A DNA stretch of 24,680 nucleotides from a virus: positions 1 to 24,680 of IMG/VR virus record IMGVR_UViG_3300020477_000124; one strand, 5' to 3'. The notes beneath the pieces were generated by a model. That model was not told where the DNA came from. It did no database searches and saw only the letters and a list, made by a program, of their open reading frames with translations. Every line of letters starts with the position of its first letter. Positions within the stretch are counted from its first letter, which is position 1. Both the position numbers and the translations under genes were made by a program. Below, one piece after another: positions 2,386-15,062 of the stretch.

Positions 2386-5300
2386 TTATCCTTCCAACGT
2401 CTTCACCCTCGCCGACAGTTCCTGCACCGCCTTAATCAGCGGCATCACCAGATTGCCGTACTTCAGCGACAACTTGCCGTTAGGCGACTCGTTCACCAGA
2501 TCGAACTCAACACCCGCCTCGGTCATCGCCGTCTGCACATCCTGCGCTATCAACCCCAGCCGCACGGTGTCGTCATCGTCTGGCCGGTCATCTGCCGGGA
2601 CGGTGACTGTCTCGTAAACGGCGTCCTTCGCCTCGACGGCAGCACTTACCAGACGGCGTTCTTTGATCTCCTCACGCGCTGGTTCAGCCGGTGTGACGAT
2701 GTGTGTTTCTGTCCACTCGTCCTTTGCCTCAACAACCACCCGTGTTTCGGTTCGTTCTGGAACCGCCTCGCGAACGCAGACGCGCTCGGTGACTTCTTCC
2801 TGTGCGGTCTGGACAACAAACGTCTCGCGCACTTCGTCGCACGCTTCTTGGACGACGTATTCTTCCATCACCGGCACTTTGTGCTTCACCGGCTCACGCA
2901 CTTCCGCGACAGCTTCAACCGCCGGTTCGATCTCGTTACCGTCCTCGTCAACAACCGCATCTTTCGCCTCAACTGCTTCTTGCACGCAGCAAGTGCAGAG
3001 TGAACCGTCCTCGTTGTACAGATCACACTCCTCGTAAACCGGGGTGCGCTCGATGCGCGTGACTTCTTCGCTGATCTGCTTCTTAACCCACTTGCCATCG
3101 ACTTCAACGATCTCCTCGCGGGTGACAGTCTCGGTCACTTCCTCCTCGGTGTGCTTGTGCCGTTCGCCTTTGATTTCTTCCCGCGCCTCCTGCGTGACCC
3201 GTTCCTCGGTGATCTCGTCCCGCGCTTCTTGCACCACACGATCTTCGTACTCGGCGTCTTGCGCCGGGATCGTTACTTCCTCGGTGACTTCCTCGACGGC
3301 GGGATGAACTTCTTCGCGTGTGACTTCCTCAACCGCATCACGCGCTTCTTGCACGACTACGTCTTCCCACACCTCGTCGGCAGCTTCTACGGCTGGGGTG
3401 ACGAGTTCTTCGCGGGTTGTGTCGCGGAGATGGTTCTCTTTGATTTCGTCTGGATAATCAGCGGGATTAACATTCTTGAACGTGATTGGCTGCAACTTCT
3501 CGATGAGTGCCAGACCAACCGCACTTGCCGCCACATCGCGCTTAACACGTCTGTCTGAAGTTATTGATGTCTGGGCGCAATGAAGTGCGCTAATGCTGGC
3601 ATTACCCAGTTGAATCGTGTTCGTCCCCTGACCCTGACCGCCGTAACCGATGACGATTTCGTTAACTTTATCTTGATCGGCTGACTCCGTAGCCGCACCG
3701 ATGAACACCGACTGTTTTGCTTCATTTACGACAGCCGGTGAAGCATCTGTTGTTTGTATGCCAGCGTTTGCACCAACCGCAACATTGCTGTCAGCATTGG
3801 CGTGGTTAAGATTTAAAAGCGCAGACGTACCAATGGCCGTATTGCTGGTCATCTCGGCAGCGGCTGCGCTCATCGCAAACGCACCTACCGCTGTGTTTTG
3901 ACCGCCGGTAATTGCCGCATCCATACAGCCAGAACCAATGGCCGTGTTTTTATTTCCCGCTGTTGAAGCCGCTAGCGCGTTGTAACCAAGTGCCGTACAA
4001 TCGTTATCATCAGCAATCGCACTCCCCGCTGAATGGCCGATCAGCACGTTCTGTGTGCCGGTGCTGATTGTCGAACCAGCCGATGAACCAATGGCTAAAT
4101 TTGTTATGTCACCAGCCGTTCCGTTCTGTGCGCCAAGCGCGTTGCGCCCGATTGCAATACAGTTGTTTGAACCGGATACTTCAGCGTCTAAAGCGTTCGC
4201 ACCTATCGCAATGTTTGAATCGCTGTCGCCAACCATCCCCAATGCAGCTTGATACCCAATGGCGATATTGTAATCGCCGGTGGTCATTGCCTTACCAGCA
4301 CCGCGTCCGATGAGTACGTTACCGGGGCCGTCTTCTAGAACGTGACCGGCTTCATAACCCACAGCTACGTTAGACGCGCCGGTGTTGTCTCCTGCTGTGC
4401 CAGAACCTTTTAGTGCCTCGTAGCCAACAGCCACGTTTGCACCACCTCGCATATTTTGAAACGCGTTGTGACCAACGGCGACGCTGTTCGACCCAGTACT
4501 TGCTTGGTATGTTTCGTTGCCAGCATAATAGCCGACAAATGTGTTGCCAGTTGAATCATCAATCTTCTCACCCGCATACCCACCAATGGCGGTGTTCTTG
4601 ACGTTGGCGTTTTGTCCCGTGAGTGCGTAAAGGCCGACAGCCACACAGGCATCTGCGCCAGAAGTCTCCGAACCCATCGCACCGAAGCCAACCGCCACGT
4701 TGTAATTTTCGCTATCGTTGGCTGCGTCAAGCGCCCAAGCACCGACAGCCACGTTACCATTGTTGTTGGTTATTGCGCCGCCAGCAGAACGCCCTATCAG
4801 TACGTTGCTGTCACCTGTGTCGAGTGCGTCGCCAGCAATTGACCCCATAATGGTGTTATCCGCACCCGTCGTAATTGCGTAGCCAGCACGGTAGCCAACC
4901 ATCGTGTTATCATCACCATCACCTGCGCCAGTACCCCCACCAATCGCACCCAACGCCCCGGCTTGATAACCAACAGCGGTATTTTGAACGCCACCATCGT
5001 CAACGCCGCTACCAAGACTGGTGAGTGCTTGATAACCAATAGCCGTGTTCTTTGAAGCATTACGGTTCTGTGCCAGCAATGCGTTGTAACCAATGGCCAC
5101 GCAACCATCGGCACTGGATGTCTCTGCGCTTAATGCCTGATGTCCTATGGCGACGTTGTAATGTTCACTAGCGTTCGCGGCTAACATTGCATTATAACCT
5201 ATGGCGATATTGCCAATCCCGTCTGTCATTGCCGAGCCAGCTTGATGGCCAACGGCAACATTCTTGTTCCCCGTAGTCGTTGCATCTAGGGAGTAGTTGC

Positions 5301-7002
5301 CGATGGCAATGTTGTAGTCGCCAGTTGGTGCAGTTGTGCCGTCGCCTTGTAGTGCGCCTTTACCAATCGCAACGCAACCTGTGATAGAAGTCGCATCGTA
5401 TGCGGCATAAGCACCAACAACTGTGTTTTCAGCACCCGTGACATCTGCACCCGCATTGACTCCAATGGCCACGTTGTCGGCGCTGCTACTAAGATTAGTG
5501 AGTGCTTGATAACCCAAACCGACATTCCGCGTCCCCGTCGTGATTGCATCAAGCGAGTAGTTCCCGATGGCAATGTTGTGGTTGCCGGTGGCGTTGTCAG
5601 AATTGTCACCAGCACTATCTGCGGCTTTGAGTGCGCTGTACCCAATCGCTATGCAATCGTCTGTGGTGGTTGCGTAAAAACCGGCCCAAGTGCCAAGAAA
5701 CGTGTTTCTACTGCCAGTAGTCTGGTTTCCGGTATATGAACCTAAACCAACATTCAACTCACCCCCCGTGAGTGCTTCAAAGCAACTACGACCAACGGCT
5801 GTGTTCCTGTTGCCAGTACAAGCAGCCAACGCATTCATTCCTACGGCAGTTGTATGCAGCGAACCAACCGCTAATGCTGCTGCACCACTACCCACGGCAG
5901 TTGCATCGCTGCCGGTGAATGCGTTGAGTGCTTTATATCCAACACCTGTATTATCGTGACCTACGCCAGCAGCACCAACAGTTCCATAGCCAATCGCCGT
6001 GTTGTAATTACAATCTGTGCCTCCAACTAATGACGACCGACCAAGGGCCGTGTTTCTTTTACCCGAAGTGAGCGCAGCCGAGGAATTAGAGCCAACTGCG
6101 GTGTTGTGGTCAGCGGTGGCTGTTAAAACAGCCGTAAGTGCGTTGTAACCAATGGCCGTGTTTTCAAGCGCACCAGCTAAAGCACCATCCATTGCATCCG
6201 TTCCAACTGCCGTGTTTGAATCGTCACCATTCGCACCGTGGCCAATGTCCAGCGAGCCGACTGTGAATGTGCCGGGGATGGAGACCGCTCCCGCGCTTGA
6301 GATGGTGAGCCGTTCAGTTGGAGCCGCACCCGTTGCACTCGTCCAAAAACTTAAACCGTGCGCGTTGTTCGTGTCAGTCGCCTTGGCTTCAATTATCGCG
6401 CCCCGTGCCGCACCTGCGTCAGACGGGTCAAAAGCCGCACGGCCAGACATAAACAACCGAACTCCCGCGCCGTTACTCGCGCCGCCGTTGTCGTTGGCGA
6501 GGTTCACTTGAGTTACTACCGCGCCCGCCGATGCATCGTGAATGTGCAACTTGGTTTTTGGACTAGCGGAATTAATCGCCACATTGCCCGTGCTGTCGAT
6601 GACCAATGCGTTTGCGCGAGTAGTTCCAGCGTCAATGACAGAAAACTCCCAAGCGTTTTCGGACGCATCCCAAGTCAGCCGTCCAGTATTGTTGGAATCC
6701 TCACCCATTATCAAATGGCAGTCTCCAGAATCGCCAATAGTGAGTGCGGTGTCGGATGTCACCCCGCTCAAATCCGCCCCGACTCTCACATTGCCCGAGG
6801 ACACAACAATGTCCAAATTGTTGCTATCGTCCTCGCTTATCGTGATATTGCTGCCCTCGTTGTTCGAGAGCCATTGCATCACATCGGAACTCGCACCATC
6901 GGACTTGATGATGGGTTCGTTCTCGATATGTGTGCCAGCCGCAATCGTGCGGTCAACATTTACGGTGACGTTTCCGCCTCCTCCGTTTAATGAAGCTCCC
7001 AT
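2386..7002 (-). CDS. Giant tail fibre/spike with YadA-like head repeats and C-terminal peptidase S74 chaperone
   Basis: This protein has 1538 residues, with AAGGAG seven bases before the ATG. Residues 1 to about 260 are a Ser/Asn/Asp-rich beta-type stalk. Residues of about 262-1130 contain about 48 copies of an N-T-A-[IV]-G-Y-x-A-L-like unit, as in trimeric adhesin heads. From residue 1149 there is a peptidase S74 (intramolecular chaperone) domain. The S-D-R-R-V-K motif gives the expected Ser1149/Lys1154 pair used in self-cleavage. The domain resumes at GLIAQDV (1483-1489) and ends in a helical stretch (LVMPLIKAVQELSARVKTLEG). Between them lies an insert of about 300 residues rich in Glu, Val, Thr and Ala with recurring VQEARD-like units. 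The protein should trimerise, cleave itself and act in receptor binding. The gene is AT-richer than its neighbours. Confidence 0.9.
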   Translation of the reverse strand: MGASLNGGGGNVTVNVDRTIAAGTHIENEPIIKSDGASSDVMQWLSNNEGSNITISEDDSNNLDIVVSSGNVRVGADLSGVTSDTALTIGDSGDCHLIMGEDSNNTGRLTWDASENAWEFSVIDAGTTRANALVIDSTGNVAINSASPKTKLHIHDASAGAVVTQVNLANDNGGASNGAGVRLFMSGRAAFDPSDAGAARGAIIEAKATDTNNAHGLSFWTSATGAAPTERLTISSAGAVSIPGTFTVGSLDIGHGANGDDSNTAVGTDAMDGALAGALENTAIGYNALTAVLTATADHNTAVGSNSSAALTSGKRNTALGRSSLVGGTDCNYNTAIGYGTVGAAGVGHDNTGVGYKALNAFTGSDATAVGSGAAALAVGSLHTTAVGMNALAACTGNRNTAVGRSCFEALTGGELNVGLGSYTGNQTTGSRNTFLGTWAGFYATTTDDCIAIGYSALKAADSAGDNSDNATGNHNIAIGNYSLDAITTGTRNVGLGYQALTNLSSSADNVAIGVNAGADVTGAENTVVGAYAAYDATSITGCVAIGKGALQGDGTTAPTGDYNIAIGNYSLDATTTGNKNVAVGHQAGSAMTDGIGNIAIGYNAMLAANASEHYNVAIGHQALSAETSSADGCVAIGYNALLAQNRNASKNTAIGYQALTSLGSGVDDGGVQNTAVGYQAGALGAIGGGTGAGDGDDNTMVGYRAGYAITTGADNTIMGSIAGDALDTGDSNVLIGRSAGGAITNNNGNVAVGAWALDAANDSENYNVAVGFGAMGSETSGADACVAVGLYALTGQNANVKNTAIGGYAGEKIDDSTGNTFVGYYAGNETYQASTGSNSVAVGHNAFQNMRGGANVAVGYEALKGSGTAGDNTGASNVAVGYEAGHVLEDGPGNVLIGRGAGKAMTTGDYNIAIGYQAALGMVGDSDSNIAIGANALDAEVSGSNNCIAIGRNALGAQNGTAGDITNLAIGSSAGSTISTGTQNVLIGHSAGSAIADDNDCTALGYNALAASTAGNKNTAIGSGCMDAAITGGQNTAVGAFAMSAAAAEMTSNTAIGTSALLNLNHANADSNVAVGANAGIQTTDASPAVVNEAKQSVFIGAATESADQDKVNEIVIGYGGQGQGTNTIQLGNASISALHCAQTSITSDRRVKRDVAASAVGLALIEKLQPITFKNVNPADYPDEIKENHLRDTTREELVTPAVEAADEVWEDVVVQEARDAVEEVTREEVHPAVEEVTEEVTIPAQDAEYEDRVVQEARDEITEERVTQEAREEIKGERHKHTEEEVTETVTREEIVEVDGKWVKKQISEEVTRIERTPVYEECDLYNEDGSLCTCCVQEAVEAKDAVVDEDGNEIEPAVEAVAEVREPVKHKVPVMEEYVVQEACDEVRETFVVQTAQEEVTERVCVREAVPERTETRVVVEAKDEWTETHIVTPAEPAREEIKERRLVSAAVEAKDAVYETVTVPADDRPDDDDTVRLGLIAQDVQTAMTEAGVEFDLVNESPNGKLSLKYGNLVMPLIKAVQELSARVKTLEG
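2568..3465 (-). repeat. Acidic E/V/T-rich repeat insert inside the S74 domain
   Basis: Residues of about 1180-1478 of the fibre protein are made of short related units such as VVQEARD, EEVTREEV, VTQEAREE and VEAKDAV. They also include a Cys-rich spot (LCTCC) and two Asp/Gly-rich turns (YNEDGSL, DEDGNEIEP). The DNA shows recurring GACTTCCTC and CGCGCTTCTTG-like words. Flanking residues on both sides match the S74 domain, so this is an in-frame expansion and not a separate gene. Confidence 0.75.
3558..6218 (-). repeat. Array of about 48 degenerate fibre-head repeats
   Basis: Coding repeats of roughly 12-28 codons each carry a core read as N-[TVI]-[AG]-[IVL]-G-x-x-A. I counted about 48 by eye. 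The spacers vary, and some blocks recur at longer period: NIAIGNYSLDA appears twice, and NVAIGHQ and NTAIGYQALT variants appear several times. The repeats are diverged at DNA level and are not perfect tandem copies. Each unit is expected to form one turn of a left-handed beta-roll in a trimeric fibre. End positions are approximate. Confidence 0.8.
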
Positions 7003-7395: not shown

Positions 7396-7430
7396 AAAGT
7401 GTTTTCTACTGCTTCAACTCTATCTAAATT

Positions 7431-7476
7431 AAAAAAAGCTGGTGGCTCACCCGCCTAATGGGGCGAGCCACCAGCT
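7431..7476 (-). terminator. Rho-independent terminator after the capsid gene
   Basis: On the minus strand a 12-bp perfect stem (AGCTGGTGGCTC pairing with GAGCCACCAGCT, top-strand arms about 7437-7448 and 7465-7476) is closed by a loop of about 16 nt. Seven Ts follow directly (top strand A at 7431-7437). It starts 16 bases after the capsid stop codon. This is a strong intrinsic terminator for leftward transcription. Confidence 0.92.
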
Positions 7477-7491
7477 GCAAACTTCTACACC

Positions 7492-8745
7492 TTACACGGT
7501 GCAGGCGGTGACATCGGTTATCGTGATGTCATTCGACGTGCCGCAGGCACGCTTGAAGATAACCGTCATCCCGTGACTCGGGAACTCCGGCCTCGCGGCG
7601 TGCTTGAACTCGGCGTAGTGACGACCCAGCTTGTCCAGCGGGTCTTCACAGTCCGCGTTGGAAGCCATAATCTTGCTGCCGCCCGTCACCCACTTCCACT
7701 CACCCATATAGGAGGTGGGGTTCCAGCTGACACCGCCAGCTGAATTTACCGGCGGAACAATCTCCGAGGTAAACACAGACGGGTTCAGGATGATGGCTGC
7801 CTCGTAGGGGGCTGTCTGCCAAGCGGAGTTCAACTCCGCCTTCTTGCCCTTCGTGGCGGCGTTCATCTCGTACTGGTTCACGCGAACGTACTTACCAGCA
7901 CTATAGGTGAACCGCGCCGGACGAAGGTTGGGGATGTGGCGGAAGTTCTTGATCTGCCGCGTGGCACCCATCCGGCTCATCAGCTCGGAAGCTGACCCTT
8001 TGCCCGAATCGGCGTGACGGAAGTCGTTCCGCATCTCGCCGTGCAGCGCAAGCTGCTGGCTGGCTTCCAAGCCAATCAACAGCGGGAACACAGGGCCGTC
8101 CTCGCCGTAGCTGATCCAACCATTGCTGTCCGGGTTGGTCGCGCCACGGTCAATCAGGTCAACCGCCAGCTGGTCAAGCAGCTGCTGCGTGATGGTGGAG
8201 GCGGCCTCCTCTACGGCAACTGCCTCAAGTTCTCCCTCGGTGTCCACAATCGACAAGCCGTTCCCGGCGGGAACCTTCGACGCGAACTTCATATAGAGGT
8301 TCTCGTACCGCTTCTCCCAGCTGCGCTGCGCCCGCTTGGTCATTTCCTCCACATAGGCGCGAAGGAATGTGTCCACGTTGTGATCGTAGATCAGGTCATC
8401 CTTACAAATGACCGGCCCGCGAAGCGCAAACTCCTCTGGGTTGTAAGTGCGGCTGGTGTAGCCCACTTCCACGTCGGTGTAGCTGCTGGCGCAGGAGCCT
8501 CCGGCTCCGCCGTCGTCACCGCCCCCTACTACGGTGTTGGTGATCGCCGTCCAAGTCTCGGTGTCGTCCGTCGGTTCGCTGTTCTCGATAGCGAACGTCG
8601 TCTTGGTGGTTCCCACACCCGTCTCAAAAGTTCCGCGAGGAATAGCATTAAGCCAAACGGAACGATAAGAAGCATTGCGATAAACCTCATCGGCTAAATT
8701 CTCCGTGGCAACCGCGAAAGCATCAAATACATTACTACAAGCCAT
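7492..8745 (-). CDS. Major capsid protein
   Basis: This 417-residue protein starts at ATG 8745, chosen because AGGAAAGG lies about seven bases upstream and the sequence upstream of it is non-coding. It begins MACSNVFDAFAVATENLADE. A long helix of about 40 residues near the middle (FLRAYVEEMTKRAQRSWEKR) matches the spine helix of HK97-type capsids. Beta-rich segments follow, and the C-terminus has VIFKRACG and a strand ending ITDVTACTV. Position just after the scaffold, a length typical of capsid proteins, a strong ribosome site and a private terminator all support it. No processing protease is visible in this module. The call is from context and general fold features, not a recognised close homologue. 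Confidence 0.78.
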   Translation of the reverse strand: MACSNVFDAFAVATENLADEVYRNASYRSVWLNAIPRGTFETGVGTTKTTFAIENSEPTDDTETWTAITNTVVGGGDDGGAGGSCASSYTDVEVGYTSRTYNPEEFALRGPVICKDDLIYDHNVDTFLRAYVEEMTKRAQRSWEKRYENLYMKFASKVPAGNGLSIVDTEGELEAVAVEEAASTITQQLLDQLAVDLIDRGATNPDSNGWISYGEDGPVFPLLIGLEASQQLALHGEMRNDFRHADSGKGSASELMSRMGATRQIKNFRHIPNLRPARFTYSAGKYVRVNQYEMNAATKGKKAELNSAWQTAPYEAAIILNPSVFTSEIVPPVNSAGGVSWNPTSYMGEWKWVTGGSKIMASNADCEDPLDKLGRHYAEFKHAARPEFPSHGMTVIFKRACGTSNDITITDVTACTV

Positions 8746-8961
8746 AGTAAATCCTTTCCTTAAAAGGGTTCTAACTAATGACGCAACACCACACTTCCAC
8801 ACGGAAGGGGGCGCATACGCCTCCTGTTCGGTCGGCCAATCCCGATTGGGCCGGTGCGATTGCCACTCGCTGCAAGGCTAAACGTGAGCCGGTTTATGCG
8901 CCCGGCTCGGGGCGCAACACTCTTGTGCATCGGGTCGGCTTGGGGCGTCAAACGGTTTGTG
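8746..8961 (-). promoter_or_regulatory. Hairpin-rich leader of the capsid mRNA (non-coding)
   Basis: These 216 bases between the scaffold terminator and the capsid start hold no convincing gene. At least four inverted repeats lie in a row: GAGCCGG/CCGGCTC (8886-8892/8902-8908), CGGCCAATC/GATTGGGCCG (8834-8842/8845-8854, one bulge), GGCG/CGCC (8811-8814/8819-8822) and CTTCC/GGAAG (8795-8799/8804-8808). The leftward transcript would start near 8930-8960, fold heavily, and end with the capsid ribosome site (AGGAAAGG near 8753-8760). It could control capsid translation or stabilise the mRNA. It is not a known riboswitch class that I can recognise. Confidence 0.5.
8947..8959 (-). promoter_or_regulatory. 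Shared motif CAAACCGTTTGAC upstream of the capsid unit
   Basis: On the minus strand the 13 bases CAAACCGTTTGAC end two bases from the scaffold terminator T-run. The same 13 bases occur on the plus strand at 14974-14986 in the divergent control region. It contains the near-palindrome CAAAC-C-GTTTG and a TTGAC that resembles a -35 box. No good TATAAT-like -10 box follows at the usual distance, so a standard sigma-70 promoter is not demonstrated. An operator or a phage-specific promoter element is possible. Confidence 0.45.
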
Positions 8962-9066
8962 AAAAAAAATGACGGCCACCGGCCGCCCGTGGGTGCAGGC
9001 CGGCAGGGCAAGCAACTCACGACGGCGGGGAGGAGGAACGCCGCCGCCCACGACCCCGTGGCCGTC
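8962..9066 (-). terminator. Long-stem intrinsic terminator after the scaffold gene
   Basis: On the minus strand GACGGCCAC (9066-9058) pairs with GTGGCCGTC (8979-8971), a perfect 9-bp stem, followed after one base by eight Ts (top strand A at 8962-8969). The enclosed stretch of about 78 nt holds further complementary words (CGTGGG with CCCACG), so the folded form is branched. It begins eight bases after the scaffold stop. It should separate scaffold and capsid transcription. Confidence 0.8.
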
Positions 9067-9073
9067 AAGATTG

Positions 9074-10204
9074 TTACCGAGCGCCGCGCACCCCCAGATC
9101 GCGCAACTCTCCAAGCACCTTGTCGCTGAAGGAACTGTTCTGCACCGGCTTCGGGTCTTCCCCGGAAACCGCCCCCGTGGCCGACGGCTCGGCCCCCTTC
9201 AGCTTGTTGATCTCCGCCTGCAGCCGGCGGTTGTGTTCCACCAGCCCGGCGTTCTGCTCCACCAGCGCACCGCCGCTGGCCGCCCACAGCGCCGCCGTTG
9301 CCGCATCCTCGAAGCTGTTCTGCTCCATCAGGATTTTCCGGGCGAGGTTTACCCGCTCCCGAACGCCGGCGTTCCACTCATCGTCCCCCTCCCGCGACTG
9401 GTAGATTGGGATATTCTCCTGCGCCTGCTTGAGCATCTCGCTGAACGAGCTCTCCAGCGCCTTGCTCCGCTTGGCCTGCTGCGCCTCCGTCCCGGCCTGC
9501 TCCTCGGCGATCATCTTCTGGTAGCTCTCCCGGCTGCTCTCCAGCTGCGCGTCCCGCTCGTGCGCGATCTCGTCAATCCGGCTGACCGCGCTCTGGATGT
9601 ACGCCTGCCTCGACGCCGGCAGGTCAGCCGTCAGCGCGTCCAGCGCGTCGGCCCGCTTCGGGCTGGCCGGCATCTTGAGGATGCCCACCAGCTCCCGCCG
9701 GCTCTCCTCTGGGACGTAGGCGCTTACCCGCTCGATCTGCGCGTTGATCGGCTCCACGAACTGCTTCTGGAACTTCGGGTGTCGCTCCAGATTGGAAACG
9801 CTCACCAGCTGGCTCAACTCGTCGTACTCCGCCTTCAGCTGGTCGTACTCCTCCATTCGGGAAGACTGATCCTCCAGCTCGGCCACCTTCGCGCTCATCT
9901 CCTCGGCCTGTCTGCGGGCCTCGTCCCGCTCCTGCTTGATCAGCTTGAAATCCTTTGCCGAGCGGGACTCCTTCTTCGTGTCCGCCGCAGCCTCCTCGGG
10001 CGGACTCCCCACCGCAGCCTCCTCGGGGGGCGGATCGGCCGGCGGTGGGGGCGCGCTTTCGTCCGGCGCGGCAGCCGTTTCGCTACCCATCGCCTGCTTG
10101 AAGGCGTCCGCCATACTGCTGATGTTTTGGTTTGTCTCCGGCAGCAGGCTCGGGTTCCCCACCACGGCCGCCGGGCTGGCTTCTGTCGTTGCTTCCTTAC
10201 TCAT
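9074..10204 (-). CDS. Head scaffolding protein
   Basis: This 376-residue protein starts at ATG 10204 with AGGAG eight bases upstream. An acidic, Pro/Ala-rich region at about residues 45-80 (PPPPADPPPEEAAVG) is followed by coiled coils at about 85-140 (FKLIKQERDEARRQAEEMSA) and further Glu/Gln/Ala helices to about 340. It ends in a basic tail (DKVLGELRDLGVRGAR). This acidic, highly helical and compositionally biased make-up, with a basic C-terminus directly before the capsid gene, is typical of phage scaffolds, which guide procapsid assembly and then leave. The start overlaps the preceding stop by eight bases. Position and composition make the call likely; no family motif is claimed. Confidence 0.75.
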   Translation of the reverse strand: MSKEATTEASPAAVVGNPSLLPETNQNISSMADAFKQAMGSETAAAPDESAPPPPADPPPEEAAVGSPPEEAAADTKKESRSAKDFKLIKQERDEARRQAEEMSAKVAELEDQSSRMEEYDQLKAEYDELSQLVSVSNLERHPKFQKQFVEPINAQIERVSAYVPEESRRELVGILKMPASPKRADALDALTADLPASRQAYIQSAVSRIDEIAHERDAQLESSRESYQKMIAEEQAGTEAQQAKRSKALESSFSEMLKQAQENIPIYQSREGDDEWNAGVRERVNLARKILMEQNSFEDAATAALWAASGGALVEQNAGLVEHNRRLQAEINKLKGAEPSATGAVSGEDPKPVQNSSFSDKVLGELRDLGVRGAR

Positions 10205-12707: not shown

Positions 12708-13294
12708 TTTCTTTTCCAGCAATGAGTCGGCAGCGCCTCGTTCTCGGCGTCGCTCATCGTTTTTTGTAGCGCGTCCAGCGGCAACCAGACTTGGGCCGCG
12801 TTAAAGCAGCCGCAATGCTGGCACGACTTGAGAAGGTTGTCATACGCTGTTTTTCGGGCTCCGACGATAAACTCGACCGCCTTGCTGACCAGACCACTCT
12901 TGCAGCCGGAGCAGCCCTTCGGCTCCACGTTGTCGGAACACATCGAGCAGATAGCCGCCCGCTGATCCGCCTCGGCCTGCGACTCCACCCGCTTGCCGCC
13001 GGCCGCGACCAGCGTCCGGGTCAGCCTCACGGCCAGATCAAGCGCCACCGGCCGCGTCCGCTTTACCGGTGCAGGCGAGTCATCCGCGCACAATTCACCG
13101 CGCTCCTTGCAGAGCGCCTCCTCGACAATATCCTCAATATTAAACGGAACGGGCAGGTTGTTGGCTTTTCGGTGGGCCACCACCCGGTTCACCAGCTGGT
13201 GAAGACTGTCCGACTGCAGCACCTGCCCCGTCTCCGGCTGCGTGTAGCTGTACCCGCCGGGGGGCACCACACTCGTCTGTATTAGCCTCATCAT
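12704..13294 (-). CDS. Cysteine-cluster (probable zinc-binding) phage protein
   Basis: This 196-residue protein is read from ATG 13294, which overlaps the terminase stop as ATGA; the next codon is also ATG. The N-terminal part (MMRLIQTSVVPPGGYSYTQP) resembles, from memory, proteins seen beside terminases in marine phages. Cysteines lie at 62 and 69, then CxxC pairs at 116/119 and 128/131, and CQHCGC at 158-163, with HC near the end (191-192). Four or more such pairs suggest two zinc-binding knuckles, as in small DNA- or RNA-binding modules. Its place, coupled to terminase and portal on both sides, suggests a packaging or head-assembly helper. Function is not known; metal binding is inferred from spacing. 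Confidence 0.7.
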   Translation of the reverse strand: MMRLIQTSVVPPGGYSYTQPETGQVLQSDSLHQLVNRVVAHRKANNLPVPFNIEDIVEEALCKERGELCADDSPAPVKRTRPVALDLAVRLTRTLVAAGGKRVESQAEADQRAAICSMCSDNVEPKGCSGCKSGLVSKAVEFIVGARKTAYDNLLKSCQHCGCFNAAQVWLPLDALQKTMSDAENEALPTHCWKRK

Positions 13295-14988
13295 ACTGCT
13301 GACTCCGCAAAAGTGTCGTGGTAGACCCGGTCGCATTCCTGCACCAGCTGATCCCAGCTGTCCACGCCGCCACGCCTCGCCGGAGTGGAGGTGGCATACC
13401 CACCCAACCGCCGCGCCATCTCCACTACCAGCGTTATTGCATCTGCAAAATCCGGCGATTGGCCGGTACGCGCCTTCATCTCAACCTTTCTCTCGATGAT
13501 TGTCATACGCTTTTCGTCGTCAAACATCCTCGAGCAAAATTCAATCACCGCCTCGTGATGCATTCCGCGCAGCTGCTCGTTGATCACCCATTGCCTCACG
13601 CTGAACCACAGCTCGGTCACCTTGTTCGCGTACACGTCGCTGCTGCGCCGGTGATCCTCCGGGCTCACCGGGCGGTCGCTGGCCTTCCCGCCGAACTCCA
13701 CCCGCTGGATCGAAGGACTCCAAGTCTTCGCCAGAATATCGCACAGACCGCCTCCCTCGCCCGTGGCATCCACCGCCAAGTGCTGCGGCAGCACCCGGTG
13801 CTCCTCGCAGAAGGCCCGCACCCGGCTCGCAATCTGGAAATGCACCGGCTCGCTGCTCTTGGCGTCCACCTCGATGATCTCGTTACGATCCAGCGAGATG
13901 CCCATCTTTCCGTTTTCAAAGTCCCCGTACCGCCCCAGCTGGATCACGCAGCGGTCGCCCCCGTTGAACGCCGGGTCGAGCCCGGCCACCGGGCGGCTCG
14001 AGCGGACGAACACCGCCGGCAGCATCGCCCGGTATTTCTCGACAAGGTTCTCGCTCAACACCGTCTTGCACACTCCCTCGGGCGACCACATCCCCCGCGT
14101 GTATTTCCAGAACTTCGGGCTGTCCTCCCCGTCATATTTCTGCGCCTGACGCACTTGATCCTCCGAGATCAGGAACTCGTACCGAGTCTTGCCGGCCTGC
14201 ATATTCGGCGACTTCATCCCGTCGAACCGCACGCAGACGCCCCGCTCCGTCTCCCACTCCTCGTCCTCGATGCTGATGCTTGACCACCCCTTTTTCGGCG
14301 TGGAAAAGCGGCCGTGCTGGTCGAACTTGCTGTGCGGGTTCCCGATGGCCAGAAATTTGAACTCCCTCGTTCCCTTCTGGAGGTTCGAGCACGCCTCGAA
14401 CGCCGCCTCCGGCGTGTCGGTCGCCTCGTCCACGATCACCATCGTGCGGGGCGAGCGGATGCCTTGGATGTTGGCCACCGCCTTCGAGGTCGCCCCGTCC
14501 AGAACCGGGATCGCGTAGATCGCGTGCTTGTCATCCCCCCGGATCGCCTGCAGCGTCGTCTTGCTGTCCACCAAATGCGCCGGATAACCGCCTTCGCACG
14601 TCCTGTACAACTCTTGTATCACCGGCCACGCCCGTTTTCGGATCATCTTGGCCGTCGTCGAGGTCAGCAGAATCGAGGTCTGGAGCGGTGCCGCCAAGAA
14701 GTAGACCATCGAGTAGAGGCTCGCCGCGAACGTCTTCCCGCTTGCCCCGCAACCGGCCCAGCAAACCCATTGGTGCTCGCACAGGCTTTCGAGCTGACGC
14801 TCGAGCCACGGGTTCCAGATCAGCTTGGGCCACAGGTGCCGCACCGCGTTTCGGAAATGCTGGTACGACCCCAGCCCACCCCTCTCCGGCGAGTGGTTGA
14901 TTCGGAAGGCGTACAGCTCCAGCTCGATGTCGTTCAGCTGCACGTCGAACGCCAACCCGTATTTATGCTTGATCAAACCGTTTGACAT
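13291..14988 (-). CDS. terL: Terminase large subunit (packaging ATPase and nuclease)
   Basis: This 565-residue protein has Walker A at 79-86 (GCGASGKT), Walker B with the catalytic acid at 184-189 (VIVDEA) and a coupling motif at 213-218 (LAIGNP). The RNase H-like nuclease domain shows acidic residues at D338 (GLDPAF), D408 (AVDATG) and D516 (SPDFADA). It pumps DNA into the procapsid through the portal and cuts the concatemer. It is the first gene of the leftward head operon and starts directly in the divergent control region without a clear ribosome site. No small terminase subunit precedes it, which is unusual. The downstream Cys-cluster gene is coupled by ATGA. Confidence 0.95.
   Translation of the reverse strand: MSNGLIKHKYGLAFDVQLNDIELELYAFRINHSPERGGLGSYQHFRNAVRHLWPKLIWNPWLERQLESLCEHQWVCWAGCGASGKTFAASLYSMVYFLAAPLQTSILLTSTTAKMIRKRAWPVIQELYRTCEGGYPAHLVDSKTTLQAIRGDDKHAIYAIPVLDGATSKAVANIQGIRSPRTMVIVDEATDTPEAAFEACSNLQKGTREFKFLAIGNPHSKFDQHGRFSTPKKGWSSISIEDEEWETERGVCVRFDGMKSPNMQAGKTRYEFLISEDQVRQAQKYDGEDSPKFWKYTRGMWSPEGVCKTVLSENLVEKYRAMLPAVFVRSSRPVAGLDPAFNGGDRCVIQLGRYGDFENGKMGISLDRNEIIEVDAKSSEPVHFQIASRVRAFCEEHRVLPQHLAVDATGEGGGLCDILAKTWSPSIQRVEFGGKASDRPVSPEDHRRSSDVYANKVTELWFSVRQWVINEQLRGMHHEAVIEFCSRMFDDEKRMTIIERKVEMKARTGQSPDFADAITLVVEMARRLGGYATSTPARRGGVDSWDQLVQECDRVYHDTFAESAV
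14974..14986 (+). promoter_or_regulatory. Shared motif CAAACCGTTTGAC at the terminase start
   Basis: The 13-nt word is identical to the one upstream of the capsid leader (8947-8959, minus strand). Here the palindrome extends to TCAAAC-C-GTTTGA (14973-14985). It lies within the first codons of the terminase gene, and TTGACA (14982-14987) is a perfect -35-like box for rightward transcription. The TATACT at 15008-15013 is a possible -10 box, but the 20-bp spacing is longer than normal, so use as a sigma-70 promoter is uncertain. Confidence 0.45.
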
Positions 14989-15062
14989 ACTGGGGGGATG
15001 CAGCCGCTATACTCCCCAGCAAGGGAATTAGTTCCCGCATATTTTTCTCAAATCGTCAAACG
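14989..15062. promoter_or_regulatory. Divergent control region between head and tail operons
   Basis: This 74-bp gap separates the leftward terminase gene from the rightward fibre gene and must hold both start points. It contains CTGGGG/CCCCAG arms (14990-14995/15014-15019), a perfect small hairpin GGGAA-TTAG-TTCCC (15023-15036), TATACT (15008-15013) and an 8-nt GTCAAACG at 15055-15062, which is the inverted copy of CGTTTGAC at 14979-14986. The paired motifs overlap or touch both start codons, so a regulator bound there could control both directions. No Shine-Dalgarno-like site is seen for either gene. Confidence 0.55.

Follow-up and report, generated by a model that had tools for sequence, protein, structure and literature searches.

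Gene 10 of phage T7 forms a unit of promoter, leader, capsid gene and partial terminator that is transcribed by the phage's own polymerase, and the packaging RNA of phage phi29 is a separate small RNA with its own end. Among phage messages with a structured 5′ leader, that of T4 gene 32 carries a pseudoknot and is described as the most stable T4 mRNA (PMC3014915), and 5′ stem-loops are described as stabilisers of the ompA and papA mRNAs (PMC3997798). Here we report on a capsid leader in a 24,680-base virus record (IMGVR_UViG_3300020477_000124, positions 1 to 24,680); this whole stretch of analysed DNA is called the window.

The capsid gene and its relatives

The minus strand of the window encodes a terminase large subunit (13291-14988; PHROG match, E 2.6e-15), a 736-aa protein that is a putative portal by its place in the gene order, a 376-aa scaffold-like protein (9074-10204; 'scaffold' again by place) and, behind the terminase and scaffold-like genes, a protein of 417 aa (7492-8745) for which we found no useful family match. 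The predicted structure of the 417-aa protein, built from 30 relatives, is of modest confidence (pLDDT 53, pTM 0.56; an earlier model with pLDDT 38 was discarded). When this model was compared with solved structures, the capsid protein of phage N4 was the best match (Foldseek E 7.7e-10), with a loose overlay (TM-score 0.42 and rmsd 11.8 in the best row), and the best 50 PDB matches were all head or capsid entries from phages, satellites and an archaeal virus. Based on the gene order and this weak fold match, we take the product of 7492-8745 to be the major capsid protein. We also note a tail-spike-like protein of 1538 aa on the same strand (2386-7002), which is rich in repeats and carries a Peptidase_S74 chaperone domain at its C terminus.

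A direct search with the capsid protein gave 16 relatives. An alignment-based search found a capsid relative encoded in 300 stretches of one collection, and a second search centre gave 304 stretches; 80 loci were kept in each case. The capsid proteins fall into three groups: the window clade W (about 70-93% identical to the window protein), the sister clade F (about 52-55%) and a third clade X (about 43%). One F-type member lies on a contig binned to an Akkermansiaceae bacterium. Searches of a phage collection gave no nucleotide match to the 501 nt around the leader and no match to the capsid protein, so no cultured relative was found there. Capsid starts were obtained for 177 loci (in some cases several loci per contig), and a k-mer filter reduced these to 52. 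Alignment A5 consists of 38 sister-clade leaders out of those 52, and it keeps L066, L089 and L090 despite their misalignment, all three of which count against structure. Alignment A6 has 14 rows (the window plus 13 relatives) and omits L030 and L031 (identical to L029) and L004 (which has the same leader as L003). One motif pattern for the window clade matched 6 stretches and missed members that are one base shorter.

The gap between the scaffold-like gene and the capsid gene is 328 nt long (8746-9073). An initial annotation of the window had given the region as about 215 nt, ending at 8961; this boundary lies one base past a stretch of eight T, and positions 8962-9067, which hold a further structured RNA, had been missed. 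The same annotation placed no gene in the leader, and the alignment agrees: in A6, the structured region has 97 gap runs, 89 of them with a length not divisible by 3, and no frame is free of stops in any of the 14 rows, which together exclude a coding leader.

Covariation of the leader fold

Judged by comparison of related sequences, and not by folding energy, the leader at 8746-8961 is a genuine structured RNA. As read on the minus strand, its order in clade W is pseudoknot 1, pseudoknot 2, a short hairpin (P3) and a tall hairpin, about 140 nt in length. Pseudoknot 1 (8886-8916) is of the H-type, with a helix S1 between 8916-8911 and 8902-8897 (TGCGCC/GGCGCA in the window, TGCGC/GCGCA in W) and a helix S2 between 8908-8903 and 8891-8886 (GAGCCG/CGGCTC), in which the loop pairs with CTAAACTC-like letters downstream. 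Both helices show changes on both sides among the 14 sequences. Pseudoknot 2 (8856-8878), also H-type, has S1 between 8878-8876 and 8864-8862 (GCC/GGC) and S2 between 8870-8867 and 8859-8856 (GCGA/TCGC, or GCGAT/ATCGC in a longer form). S2 covaries, with GCGA/TCGC replaced by GAGG/CCTC in L029. S1 is invariant inside W and inside F, and it reads GCC/GGC in W versus GTC/GAC in F and, by eye, GGTC/GACC in X.

P3 (GGCC/GGCC, 8852-8849 with 8837-8834, within 8828-8852) and a tentative third pseudoknot (TCGG/CCGA, 8845-8842 with 8831-8828) are paired in 94.6% and 91.1% of cells, respectively; they hardly vary and have no double-change branch. With little or no variation in W, covariation says little about S1 of pseudoknot 2 and about the third pseudoknot. 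The tall hairpin (8780-8821, with an apical C(GTGT)G loop at 8794-8807) shows both-sided changes in 12 of its 17 pairs among the 14 sequences. Out of the four consecutive inverted repeats listed in the initial annotation, three are recovered to within 1-2 bases (8794-8807, 8834-8852 and 8886-8908), the last of them not as the simple hairpin it was taken for but as one helix of pseudoknot 1. The letters of the fourth repeat (8810-8821) are present, but in the counted model each arm has its partner in 8780-8792 instead of in the other arm. Outside the fold, an AU-rich stretch contains the ribosome-binding site AAGGAAAGGA (8752-8761, minus strand), which ends 6 nt upstream of the capsid ATG and which had rightly been called a good site; a Shine-Dalgarno-like word was found upstream of the capsid gene in 6/6 window-clade contigs checked.

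Over all 14 sequences of A6, 91.1% of cells are paired, and 44 cells carry both-sided changes, as compared to 11.7 in shuffles (44 was reached in 0/500) and a maximum of 17 with slid partners. On the capsid-protein tree, 36 double-change branches were inferred (3 to 8 with slid partners), including 3 and 4 for the two helices of pseudoknot 1, 2 for S2 of pseudoknot 2 and 27 for the tall hairpin. The earlier proposal of a structured RNA in the capsid leader, with compensating changes in relatives, is borne out by this strong covariation. G-U exceeds A-C in the named pairs (69 vs 10 in W, 52 vs 31 in F, and 39 vs 2 in element 1, the neighboring RNA described below), which indicates that the fold acts as RNA of the capsid sense strand.

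Folding energy, which had been expected to exceed that of shuffled sequences, fails to do so in the window: z is -0.86 for the 216-nt leader (35 of 200 shuffles as good), -0.29 for the whole 328-nt gap and -0.03 for the 142-nt leader core (85 of 200 shuffles as good), with a range of -0.22 to -2.32 for the leader cores of nine relatives. We note that the energy model cannot score pseudoknots and that the window is G+C-rich. Being no better than shuffled, folding energy was rejected as evidence for the window leader. An energy equal to that of shuffled sequence, together with a palindromic box at 8946-8959, is what a DNA-level element (a packaging site or an operator array) or chance inverted repeats could look like; such a reading is scarcely credible, and already disfavoured, given the one-strand excess of G-U and the compensatory changes in crossing helices.

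The 38 leaders of the sister clade (A5) repeat the W architecture in the same order with other letters: GACC/GGTC is crossed by a 9-position helix, GTC/GAC is crossed by GCGG/CCGC, and a hairpin domain follows. A5 contains 96 both-sided cells (41.7 shuffled, at most 24 slid) and 57 double-change branches (at most 13 slid), and two of the five measures had no clear advantage over shuffles (54 and 59 of 500). In F, no part of the leader varies more than the second, crossing helix in pseudoknot 1 (e.g. 2859-2881 in L034), versions of which are found on differing backgrounds, a pattern that resembles exchange by recombination. Recombination may therefore inflate the F branch count. In a tree-free test, the 31 distinct versions of this helix had on average 7.8 of 9 positions paired, as compared to 5.9 with partners swapped, and the observed pairing sum was reached in 0/10000 permutations. 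The two-pseudoknot layout fits the three distinct leaders of X by eye, their sequences being too uniform for covariation. A covariance model of the W leader found the W leaders searched and gave no credible match in F or X, so that a common origin across the clades rests on architecture and position, not on sequence.

The place of the leader before capsid genes is constant in F. Scanning viral contigs for the F pseudoknot 2 motif gave at least 120 stretches; in 114 of the 118 loci read, the capsid start lies 84-96 nt downstream, the remaining 4 are cut by contig ends, and none lies elsewhere. A C(GNKT)G hairpin is found 50-61 nt upstream of the ATG (37 nt in X) in 75/89 leaders, as compared to 1.5% in shuffles; as the 89 leaders are related, this count stands for three clades, not for 75 events. 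A hairpin with a similar loop 37-61 nt before the ATG in all three clades has the look of a recognition site and, along with the constant linkage of the leader to the capsid gene, could suggest an autogenous operator, in keeping with the feedback by capsid binding raised in the initial annotation: on a build-up of free subunits, the capsid protein or another virion protein would bind the C(GNKT)G hairpin or the pseudoknots and repress translation of the capsid gene. Among phage leader pseudoknots, the closest precedent, that of gp32, is described as autogenous (PMC3014915). However, the ribosome site in W is left uncovered by the fold, the loop and helix letters differ among the clades, and the hairpin as searched is absent in 14/89 leaders; an operator of this kind is the strongest rival to the explanation favoured below, although on balance a rather unlikely one.

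A probable capsid transcription unit and element 1

Upstream of the fold lies a promoter-like box (CAAACCGTTTGACG, 8946-8959, minus strand), in which the palindrome CAAAC-C-GTTTG overlaps a -35-like hexamer, TTGAC, of a putative promoter. TTGAC is found 34-41 nt upstream of pseudoknot 1 in 85/89 unique leaders of the three clades (searched 28-46 nt upstream); other 18-nt spans of the leaders contain it at 0.2% of places. Of the four remaining leaders, two read TTTAC and one TTGCT; the fourth is L110, whose leader fold is unassigned. This spacing suggests that the fold probably starts a separate capsid transcript. Reading the leader sequences revealed no recognisable consensus -10 for the capsid box, and the spacer between the box and pseudoknot 1 has no shared fold or hairpin. 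Some F spacers beat shuffles on their own (z from +1.5 to -3.3 for 30 dissimilar spacers), so the spacer might still be transcribed. As a whole, the pattern resembles a message that would start at pseudoknot 1, preceded by a spacer that is not transcribed and a -35 element. TTGAC might also pair with F's GTCGG upstream of the start.

In W the box is the extended palindrome CAAAC-N-GTTTG-AC. The 13-mer CAAACYGTTTGAC has an exact match at one further window site only, at the divergent structural operon, where a second copy of the box (CAAACCGTTTGAC, 14974-14986, plus strand) lies upstream of the genes. At this second box, a TATA-like hexamer is found 20 nt past TTGACA in 5/5 contigs read. It is a fair guess that the box marks an activator-dependent late promoter. 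Two further observations concern these sites: CGTTTGAC at the second box is mirrored by GTCAAACG (15055-15062) just upstream of the ATG of the divergent operon, and T replaces C in the box at both sites of the L006 contig.

Behind the capsid gene, a terminator scan identified an intrinsic terminator with a 16-bp stem and a U-run (7437-7476, minus strand). The W relatives listed have a hairpin at the same place, with a U-rich run in most and no clear one in L032. Terminator-like sites both upstream and downstream of the capsid gene in the window suggest that this gene forms its own unit. Between the capsid terminator and the next gene (7396-7436, minus strand), we observed GAAGCAGNAGAAAA-like letters in a short stem with ten distinct variants in W; the stem is mostly AAGT/ACTT and is AACT/AGTT in L013 and L032, and it is perhaps another structured start-site element. 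Past the capsid gene, L034, L045 and L082 have a further TTGAC-like box, then short hairpins and a strong candidate terminator; together these could represent a separate small RNA.

Three features would also suit antitermination of the put type: the leader lies just past a promoter-like box, the capsid gene is followed by a terminator, and in W and X the next ATG is only about 8-60 nt further on, which leaves little room for a promoter. The nascent leader would bind its own RNA polymerase, which would then pass the capsid terminator, so that the downstream genes are expressed; HK022 putL is likewise located just downstream of its promoter (PMC9378689). We consider this unlikely: putRNA is about 70 nt long with two stem-loops, and the main text of its description does not contain the word 'pseudoknot' (PMC9378689); partial termination accounts equally well for the downstream genes; and the model found the leader only once in the window, which would leave the operon at the second box without one. 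Pseudoknots are common in riboswitches, too, but a ligand-sensing riboswitch or attenuator is very improbable here, as no expression platform was seen (the leader has no terminator-like site, and the counted model has no arm against the ribosome site), the letters vary across the clades, and control appears to extend to a single gene.

Directly after the scaffold-like gene, the gap contains a second pseudoknotted RNA, element 1 (8962-9067, minus strand), with a U8 end at 8962-8969. Helix P1 (9067-9061/8976-8970) encloses P3 (9045-9039/9027-9021) and P4 (9003-8998/8984-8979), and P2 (9053-9047/8993-8987) is the pseudoknot, in which the P4 loop pairs back to the strand before P3. Copies in relatives include 1840-1940 of L032 and 2512-2632 of L029. 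Among 14 sequences, 95.8% of cells are paired (96.7% in P4), with 38 both-sided cells (11.2 shuffled, at most 7 slid) and 29 inferred double-change branches (at most 4 slid). P2, which was absent from the model that aligned these sequences, is paired in 14/14 and shows both-sided changes in 3 of its 7 pairs. The folding-energy z of element 1 is -2.45 in the window and -0.38 in L007.

In 14 members, element 1 starts within about a dozen nt of the stop of the scaffold-like gene. In L032, a 277-aa reading frame (no Pfam match) separates element 1 from the capsid leader, and the fold is kept while the U-run, present in the window and most relatives, is absent. This suggests that element 1 belongs with the scaffold-like gene and is probably more than a terminator. 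As in an intrinsic terminator, a G+C-rich stem is followed by a U-run in the window and most relatives, whereas the long structured loop with a pseudoknot is unlike a plain terminator. The 30 sources searched included F and X loci as well as L110, and none of these yielded element 1. Its motif matched 13 stretches, 12 of them in window-clade contigs; the thirteenth (L304, outside those 30 sources) lies inside a gene and looks like chance. Stop-codon recoding by element 1 was also considered and dropped: read-through in the window ends after two codons, and the frames behind differ among the relatives. Element 1 could be a separate small RNA.

The leader, too, had been suggested to be a separate small RNA ended by its hairpins. 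The elaborate fold, and the U-run end of the adjoining element 1 in the window and most relatives, would be in keeping with a virion RNA or one acting in trans, encoded upstream of the capsid gene, such as a small regulatory RNA or a packaging RNA like phi29 pRNA. We hold this to be improbable: in the window no terminator-like site closes the leader before the capsid start, contrary to that suggestion, the distance to the capsid start is nearly fixed in F, and the R2 model found one copy each in 5 of 13 whole contigs and none in the other 8.

Proposed role and comparison with known systems

The best explanation of these data, which we put forward tentatively, is that the leader is a cis-acting 5′ element that protects the capsid mRNA and keeps its start region open. 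Positions 8746-8961 would then hold the promoter region of a capsid mRNA transcribed on its own, together with the 5′ leader of that message, with transcription probably starting about 35 nt past the TTGAC box. Two tandem pseudoknots would make up the extreme 5′ end of the message; after them would come a short hairpin, the tall hairpin with its C(GNKT)G loop and, left open, the AU-rich ribosome site. This compact 5′ fold may act in cis as a protective cap, offering no single-stranded end to 5′-end-dependent ribonucleases, and as a spacer that isolates the start region from upstream pairing; the outcome would be a long-lived, heavily translated message for a protein needed in hundreds of copies. 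Pairing that is kept while the letters drift is what a physical role of the fold predicts. Together with a ribosome site outside the fold, the cap-like place and the position before the most-needed gene, it favours a stabilising and insulating 5′ element. An observation that speaks against a protective cap is that the loop letters are conserved within clades beyond the need of a purely mechanical one.

By rough counts (leftmost ATG of simple ORFs), Shine-Dalgarno genes number 18/55 in W (5.7 expected), 7/117 in F (9.1 expected) and 0/24 in X (0.8 expected). With an excess in W and none in F and X, these phages, though related, seem to have hosts that differ in their translation signals. As the leader is present in clades with and without this excess, it appears to be no replacement for a ribosome site. 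More speculatively, the two linked RNAs (the element 3′ of the scaffold-like gene and the leader 5′ of the capsid gene) might set the stoichiometry of the head proteins, being read by free head proteins during assembly, and the complementary pseudoknot helix of the leader might be kept variable to evade rival phages' elements or a host factor; we give this idea little weight.

On the comparisons that follow, the capsid leader is not assigned to any known family. At curated gathering thresholds, Rfam 15 gave no match in the window or in 8 relatives, and the best match below threshold in the gap scored 18.4 bits (cut-off 65.3), so the remark in the initial annotation that no described class matches holds for Rfam 15. 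Among the best-ranked titles of our literature search there was no capsid-leader RNA of this kind (a 2017 survey of 224 candidate RNAs lies outside this comparison), and a word search found no 'capsid' in the main texts of the 2010 and 2021 RNA surveys. In this large group of uncultured phages, a fold with several independently supported helices heads the most-demanded structural gene, and it escapes detection both by Rfam families and by folding energy. It makes testable the question of how phages raise or balance capsid output via the message, in hosts with and without Shine-Dalgarno use.

Like T7 gene 10, the capsid gene described here appears as its own terminator-ended transcription unit. 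A search for a T7-type polymerase matched neither 13 contigs nor the control genomes, and so carries no weight in this comparison. As compared to the phi29 packaging RNA, the window leader has no terminator-like site before the capsid start; processing is invisible to sequence. The leader shares with HK022 putRNA its place as a structured RNA just past a phage promoter (a putative one here), but putRNA is described as two stem-loops of about 70 nt in early operons (PMC9378689), whereas the capsid leader has pseudoknots and spans about 140 nt. The ompA and papA stabilisers are likewise folds located close to or at the 5′ terminus of an mRNA; those are described as simple stem-loops in host mRNAs (PMC3997798), whereas here pseudoknots are found in phages. 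The likeness to gene 32 of T4, T2 and RB69 is an H-type pseudoknot in a phage 5′ leader, upstream of a ribosome site that lies in an AU-rich stretch (PMC3014915). Gene 32 differs in having one pseudoknot, 67 nt before the start codon, as compared to two in tandem plus hairpins here, and in encoding the single-strand binding protein gp32, whereas the leader here heads a capsid gene; autogenous repression is reported as demonstrated for gene 32 (PMC3014915) and is a hypothetical role for the capsid leader.
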